From Sphingobacterium multivorum (GTDB lineage Bacteria; Bacteroidota; Bacteroidia; Sphingobacteriales; Sphingobacteriaceae): 64,000 nucleotides of DNA. Shown one piece after another: positions 54,824 to 55,822 of this stretch. The stretch is from positions 558,001 through 622,000 of the forward strand of contig NZ_UAUU01000011.1 of NCBI RefSeq assembly GCF_900457465.1, written 5' to 3'. Position 1 is the stretch's first letter, and every line of letters begins with the position of its first letter. A program made the position numbers and the translations under genes. The notes under the pieces were generated by a model. It was given only the letters and a program-made list of their open reading frames with translations, did not search any database and was not told the origin of the DNA.

Positions 54824-54910
54824 AGTATTTATTTTGTGTATTTGGCAGTCGCTGACATGTTGACGGCTGACTTTCAAATTTTAAGCTTCTATTATTGTTT
54901 CCCCTATATT

Positions 54911-54926
54911 GCAAGGGAAGTGCCAA
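54911..54926 (-). promoter_or_regulatory. Sigma-54-type (-24/-12) promoter candidate for lon
   Basis: On the minus strand TTGGCACTTCCCTTGC fits the TTGGCAC-N5-TTGC consensus exactly, with the correct spacing, 88 nt before the lon start. Start of transcription would be near 54900. No activator gene is seen nearby. Confidence 0.6.
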
Positions 54927-55165
54927 TTGCTAAAAGTGAGCAAAATTACAAATCTATTTTCTAGAATAGGAAAAAAAGGCAGGTTAAATAAAATTTATCT
55001 GCCATTTGTTGGAGAAATAGGCATAATAATTGTAATATTGGAATGTGAAAGGGCACCGATGGCAGTTCTTGCGTTTAAAGAAATCAATCGGCGGTTTTTT
55101 CAAAAATGTAGAAACGATCACACGTGATCATTAAAGAGTGAATATAAAAACGTAACTAGTTAGAT
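54927..55165. other. Intergenic region upstream of lon and the TPR gene
   Basis: The rest of the 342-bp gap holds no convincing gene. A 72-codon ORF at 54909-55127 has no recognisable feature and crosses the lon promoter. A/T-rich; it probably contains the promoter of the TPR gene, which I cannot place. Confidence 0.45.
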
Positions 55166-55822
55166 ATGAATTTAAAATCATTTAAATTGGGTTTGTTTAC
55201 TGGGGTTTTTGCCTTAGTTGCTTTTAGCGCGAATGCACAACAACCAAAACAGGCTGAGCATAGCAACGCTAATGTGAGAATGGGGCAGAAAGCTCTTTTG
55301 GATGGTGATTTCAAGAATGCAGAGTCATACTTGACTAAAGCCCTCCCTCAGGAAGGGAAAGATCCGGACGTATTATATATGTTGGGATATTCTCAATTTC
55401 AAAATGGTGATTATAAAAAATCAGCGGAGACTTTTGGAAAAGTAGTTGCATTGAACGGTAAAAATGCAAATGCTTTATATTTCAAAGCGAAAGCAACAAA
55501 CAACCTCGCTACTCAATCCACAAATAAGACATCTGTTGCCAACAAAGAGCAGTTGTTGAAAGTTGCTATTGAGGATTATTCAAAAGCAATTGCCATTACG
55601 CCTACTGATTCGAAATTCTATCAAAATAGAGCGATTGCGAATCGTGATTTAGGTATCTTGATCGGAACAGCGGGTACGCCGAATTACAATAAGGCAATGG
55701 CAACTGACGCTTATAACAATGCAATCAAGGATTATGAAAAAGTGTTGAGCTTTGATGCATCGAAAAAAGATATTCAAACAGAAATCAAAAAAGCGAAAGT
55801 ATATAGAGATAACTTGAAATAG
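55166..55822 (+). CDS. Secreted tetratricopeptide-repeat protein
   Basis: 218 residues. Signal peptide (MNLKSFKLGLFTGVFALVAFSANA, cut before QQPKQ). TPR-like helix pairs follow: RMGQKALLDGDFKNAESYLTK, PDVLYMLGYSQFQNGDYKKSA, NALYFKAKATNNLATQS and KFYQNRAIANRDLG up to the end. Probably a periplasmic scaffold for protein interactions; no partner is evident. It is transcribed alone and has a terminator. Confidence 0.82.
   Translation: MNLKSFKLGLFTGVFALVAFSANAQQPKQAEHSNANVRMGQKALLDGDFKNAESYLTKALPQEGKDPDVLYMLGYSQFQNGDYKKSAETFGKVVALNGKNANALYFKAKATNNLATQSTNKTSVANKEQLLKVAIEDYSKAIAITPTDSKFYQNRAIANRDLGILIGTAGTPNYNKAMATDAYNNAIKDYEKVLSFDASKKDIQTEIKKAKVYRDNLK

Follow-up and report, generated by a model that had tools for sequence, protein, structure and literature searches.

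A predicted sigma-54 promoter of lon in Sphingobacterium multivorum, with a conserved palindrome in its leader and a candidate activator

The lon gene of Sphingobacterium multivorum is preceded by a -24/-12 site which, taken together with the regulon to which we assign it, very probably represents a sigma-54 promoter within a Bacteroidota sigma-54 protein-quality-control (heat-shock) regulon. The gene lies in a stretch of 64,000 nt (contig NZ_UAUU01000011.1, positions 558,001 to 622,000), called the window here. RpoN-polymerase would bind the lon -24/-12 element and remain closed, and an AAA+ enhancer-binding protein sitting on copies of a palindrome near the promoter (CYGMCA-N3-TGKCRG) would open the closed complex, most likely, we infer, upon the build-up of misfolded proteins. 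The most likely activator would be P0001, a receiver-less protein encoded beside lptE. The features concerned are collected in Table 1.

Table 1. Features of the lon region and the candidate activator gene; positions are those of the window unless a contig or locus is named
Feature	Position	Strand	Evidence or remark
lon, endopeptidase La, 825 aa	52346..54823	minus	TIGR00763, E 3.7e-280
Inverted repeat CCGTCAACATGTCAG in lon leader (+ strand: CTGACATGTTGACGG)	54852..54866	minus	44 nt after last -12 base; 11 of 12; candidate activator site
Predicted sigma-54 -24/-12 promoter TTGGCACTTCCCTTGC of lon	54911..54926	minus	exact pattern, alignment, matrix score, conservation
Possible housekeeping -7 box (TAnnTTTG) TAGATTTG	54949..54956	minus	upstream of sigma-54 site; consensus from the accessible text of PMC9723704
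Degenerate upstream repeat CTGCCTTTTTTTCCT	54968..54982	minus	42 nt before lon TGG; weak, 8 of 12
P0001, receiver-less sigma-54 activator next to lptE	G000:C3, L114:8679-9953	minus	domain search

The sigma-54 consensus is composed of GG at -24 and GC at -12 (TGGCAC-N5-TTGC), and the lon site matches it exactly with standard spacing. On the minus strand it reads from 54926 to 54911, and 87 nt separate its last base from the A of the lon ATG (54823); the first-pass annotation, which had claimed a match of the right spacing and orientation before lon, was correct on the letters and the strand. The start codon agreed with those of relatives, whose matches reaching query residue 1 all begin at ATG, and the N-terminus of the product, a protein that we take to be COG0466, was 100% identical with that of S. 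siyangense.

Taken alone, the strict string is no more frequent in the genome than expected by chance, and it proves little. Exact TGGCACN5TTGC occurred as a single copy in the window, where 3 copies with one mismatch were found vs 3.8 expected from shuffles, and the 6-Mb genome contained 2 exact copies (the second within an ORF) vs 3 for the reversed control. Enrichment of the strict motif was therefore rejected as proof of a promoter, since it is over-represented neither in the window nor in the genome. TTGGCAYN5TTGC was found three times vs 0 for the control, namely at lon, at an intergenic position beside RNA-like units and within an ORF; the wider TTGGYAYN5TTGYW gave 28 genomic sites vs 16 for the control, with 15 of the 28 inside ORFs.

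The lack of enrichment in window and genome is what a chance string before lon would give, but the conservation of the site refuted this reading. The first-pass annotation had suggested looking for the same motif before lon in relatives, and we found TTGG(C/T)A(C/T)-N5-TTG at most 300 nt from the match start in 63/67 assessable Bacteroidota loci, retained amid otherwise diverging DNA. The count started from 68 loci of other genomes, 67 of which had at least 150 nt upstream; L014, with only 39 nt, was left out. The pattern was present without exception in the 52 assessable loci from Sphingobacterium, Parapedobacter and Rhinopithecimicrobium, and it was absent in four of the 67 (L066, L069, L070 and L072). 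Through alignment of 21 loci hand-picked for spread, the site was revealed as the best-kept block upstream of the lon ATG. Under a matrix derived from 22 lon sites, all from other genomes, the site in the window scored 25.0, and the highest value among 97 control upstream regions of the same genome was 13.8. Because the site is conserved before lon, a chance match was rejected, and we give it virtually no credence.

Genes of lon's kind often have two promoters, and lon might be transcribed mainly from a housekeeping promoter (the box TAGATTTG or another), with sigma-54 adding little. This is consistent with the TAnnTTTG box upstream of the sigma-54 site, which follows the flavobacterial -7 consensus given in the accessible text of PMC9723704. 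Yet such a box occurred within 60 nt upstream in just 15/63 lon loci, and 13 of these belong to the nearest species group, while the sigma-54 site is kept, so we consider a mainly housekeeping origin quite improbable.

The sigma-54 reading of the lon site also accords with the gene content. The first-pass annotation had named a genome without rpoN as evidence against its proposal; rpoN was found, and its product contains all three sigma-54 domains. Four proteins with a full sigma-54 activator domain were revealed in the genome, three with a receiver domain and one without (P0001).

A lon promoter of this type has been reported before in a flavobacterium, and a class-level prediction exists for Bacteroidota, so it is less new than the first-pass annotation supposed. 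In Flavobacterium psychrophilum, according to the accessible text of PMC9723704, a transcription start site mapped at 1168709 precedes Lon (THC0290_0994) and has a sigma-54-type motif; it belongs to cluster B254, in which lon is co-expressed with groESL, dnaK, grpE-dnaJ and htpG; clpB belongs to B415. The genes of that sigma-54 (SM4) regulon bear -24/-12-like sites in the window's genome as well, with clpC in addition; the difference is that 5' ends were mapped in F. psychrophilum, whereas the Sphingobacterium sites are known from sequence alone (PMC9723704, accessible text). A 2025 survey (PMC12316311) predicted, in the text available, sigma-54 enrichment before heat-shock genes and the ATP-dependent proteases COG0542, COG0466 and COG1066 in Flavobacteriia and Bacteroidia, the same kinds of targets as here, but this is a class-level matrix prediction, and the main text of the survey never contains 'sphingobacter'. 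The earlier claim that lon is under RpoN control through an enhancer-binding activator is supported by rpoN, the activators, the motif in 63/67 relatives' loci and the mapped 5' end of F. psychrophilum (PMC9723704, accessible text), and for Sphingobacterium such control is predicted; we infer that the promoter is in use there.

In the part of the literature found, the switching of Bacteroidota chaperones and Lon is partly worked out and no activator is named: the accessible text of PMC9723704 notes three PF00158 proteins and assigns none to these promoters. Its main text contains 'palindrom' and 'inverted repeat' 0 times, and a literature search with limited coverage of subscription journals brought up neither the palindrome nor a role for P0001. 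The new part, not found in print, is the conserved palindrome at fixed spacing together with a candidate activator. With the invariant recognition segment of the latter, they make the missing half open to binding assay and deletion.

Through a loose-pattern search of the window's genome, we found -24/-12-like sites before dnaK (TTGGCATAAGGGTTGA), grpE (TTGGCAAAAACTTTGA), htpG (TTGGAACACTGATTGT), clpB (TGGCACTTCAATTGT), groES (TTGGCATAAAAGATGA) and clpC (TGGCTTAATTGTTGA), their TGG located 59-100 nt before the gene start; the same search gave no site in the upstream DNA of rpoN, P0001 or mreB. As a group, these six sites (lon excluded) outscored the 97 control upstream regions (Mann-Whitney p = 0.0011). 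Singly, dnaK, htpG and clpB stood out, with 2, 2 and 3 of 97 controls scoring as high, and grpE, groES and clpC were unremarkable (10, 21 and 48 of 97). The regulon sites before lon, dnaK, grpE, groES, htpG and clpB were thus all present, with a clear score at lon, dnaK, htpG and clpB and a weak one at grpE and groES. A -24/-12-like site preceded grpE in 27/27 loci evaluated from other genomes. This set comprised 30 genomes drawn from the 50 of the activator search described below (the other 20 were left out); two gave no grpE match, 28 loci were fetched, and L193 was excluded as its frame was not settled.

Three observations were made beside these promoters. The dnaK gene of the assembly is split into three overlapping frames (L131:1492-3394; G000:C2:376213-378115), perhaps by an assembly error. 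Among the controls, TAGGCATAATAATTGTA at 55018-55034 of the window (plus strand), upstream of a divergent TPR-like gene at 55166, gave the fourth best of the 97 scores, with a similar sequence in L012, L020 and L026. The best-scoring control region contained TTGGCACAAATCTCGCA, before a YqgE/AlgH-like gene (named by eye; L137, 2344-2907, minus strand) adjoining htpG.

The palindrome in the lon leader scored at least 10 of 12 in 56/63 promoter-bearing loci and below 10 in the other 7. In 51 of the 56 it begins 44-45 nt after the -12 element, the distant L073 and L075 included; the remaining five start at 34, 43, 46, 47 and 56 nt. Among 28 representatives hand-picked for spread, 26 leaders reached a score of 10, and in 24 (all except L020, L062, L073 and L074) the observed score was reached by no more than 0.6% of 500 dinucleotide shuffles. 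The half-sites co-vary in part: many Sphingobacterium have CTGACA..TGTCGG and Parapedobacter has CTGCCA..TGGCGC, a pattern that recognition by a dimer would predict. Upstream of the lon -24 element the copies are weaker: the best one, at 9-10 of 12, was located 42-43 nt before TGG in 31/63 loci and 53-54 nt before it in 6/63, and no upstream copy of at least 9 was found in 19/63.

The palindrome was also found at the other proteostasis promoters. A score of at least 10 of 12 occurred at all seven (6/6 besides lon, within 250 nt) vs 3/97 control regions of 250 nt, a contrast that is not fully independent, as the consensus was written after viewing lon, grpE and other promoters. The distances in the window's genome were 12 nt at htpG, 11 at clpC, 12 and 43 at grpE, 52 at clpB, 53 at dnaK, and 74 and 88 at groES; the copies at htpG, clpC, clpB, dnaK and groES score 10, and those at grpE differ. 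In 24/27 grpE loci of other genomes, the end of a copy scoring at least 10 is located 10-12 nt upstream of TGG, the exceptions being L192 (no copy of at least 9), L196 (41 nt) and L199 (21 nt). A further copy is frequent, with its end 42-45 nt upstream of TGG. Several of the gaps appear to differ by near multiples of the helical turn.

The palindrome alone is not enriched genome-wide, with 6 copies vs 7 for the control, or 9 vs 14 when one mismatch is allowed. Of these nine, three belong to promoter regions (one at lon, a tandem pair at grpE), a further five fall within ORFs, and the last (L120) sits where two short ORFs meet. No palindrome was found within 160 nt of the other 27 TTGGYAYN5TTGYW sites. 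Because none but lon carries the palindrome nearby, the intergenic sites of this wider pattern may answer to other activators. Six of these palindrome-free intergenic sites (L087, L089, L093, L103, L107 and L108) precede genes that we named by eye as outer-membrane-like, DUF805-like, NlpE-like lipoprotein, another lipoprotein, DUF1573-like and lipocalin-like, and they are perhaps the regulon of another sigma-54 activator.

At lon the palindrome is located downstream of the point where transcription is expected to start, but at grpE, htpG and clpC it is upstream of -24. Sigma-54 activators usually bind upstream of -24 and can also act from downstream, and we consider that the lon leader copy would activate rather than repress. 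The downstream lon copy would suit a repressor just as well, but an activator is favoured by the copies located upstream at grpE, htpG and clpC.

The promoter might thus be a sigma-54 promoter whose palindrome is the operator of a separate repressor (or the site of another activator), with a receiver-type activator driving lon. The fixed place of the lon palindrome in the expected transcribed leader is consistent with such an operator, and a repressor also tolerates the downstream placing at lon and the upstream placing at grpE; the position upstream of -24 at grpE, htpG and clpC is, on the contrary, the usual side of an activator. As for the driver, a second activator composed of receiver and AAA+ domains exists in the window's genome, where it measures 463 aa and gives a weak HTH_8 match, and in the other genomes read, and it was located 5.4 kb (L210) and 3.5 kb (L211) from grpE. 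But its three short versions, with the loop GAFTSA/GSFTSA, gave no helix-turn-helix match on scanning (L210:7488-8654, 388 aa; L211:5824-6975, 383 aa; L212:2869-4044, 391 aa), and a protein of this form probably could not read the palindrome alone. Reading these activators of about 390 aa as receiver-less proteins was rejected, as they contain receiver and AAA+ domains and no helix-turn-helix match. Taken as a whole, a separate operator combined with a receiver-type driver seems to us rather unlikely.

We therefore return to P0001 as the activator; it is the best candidate because, in the genomes with the short receiver-type form, only P0001 of the two shared activators has a DNA-binding end. 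It is composed of Sigma54_activat, AAA lid and HTH_8 domains, and its GAFTGA-like loop reads GSFTGA. The activator search took in 50 of the 68 lon genomes (the other 18 were left out), and P0001 was found at full length in 49 of the 50 with 50-100% identity, missing only from the genome of L072. Its neighbourhood was also kept: by a simple pattern, a miaB-like end was located upstream in 30/30 loci and an lptE-like start downstream in 27/30, and by eye an lptE-like gene was seen in 9 and a miaB-like gene in 7 of 11 more distant loci; we take these neighbours to be miaB and lptE on sequence likeness. The P0001 segment LGISERTLYRKI was invariant in 19/19 aligned proteins, an alignment in which all 18 loci tried were included. 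The chances that P0001 binds the palindrome are, in our judgement, about even.

P0001 resembles PspF-type proteins in its N-terminal AAA+ sigma-54 activator domain and C-terminal Fis-type helix-turn-helix, but it scores 270.5 bits against the PspF model cut-off of 443.55, and it differs also in having about 120 residues that separate its lid domain from the helix-turn-helix. Between the AAA+ and DNA-binding parts we found a partly conserved stretch, ERDLLYKVLFDMKKDMxDLKKLV, which is a possible place for control. We might speculate, and hold it quite possible though slightly short of probable, that P0001 is one phylum-wide master activator that drives the Bacteroidota heat-shock response via sigma-54, reading the palindrome at lon, grpE, htpG, dnaK and related genes, and that it may link the quality control of proteins with that of the outer membrane (LptE).

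Three tandem small-RNA-like units were observed in G000:C8 near 74.8-75.4 kb (L080:1003-1108, about 1240-1312 and 1502-1597). They contain no ORF reaching 70 aa and gave no Rfam match above the gathering score. CATAAATTTAGGTTAATAATT is common to all three units, each of which closes with a terminator-like hairpin whose loop is rich in C, and the first and third start with the sigma-54-like sites TTGGCATCTTTCTTGA and TTGGCATAGGTATTGC.
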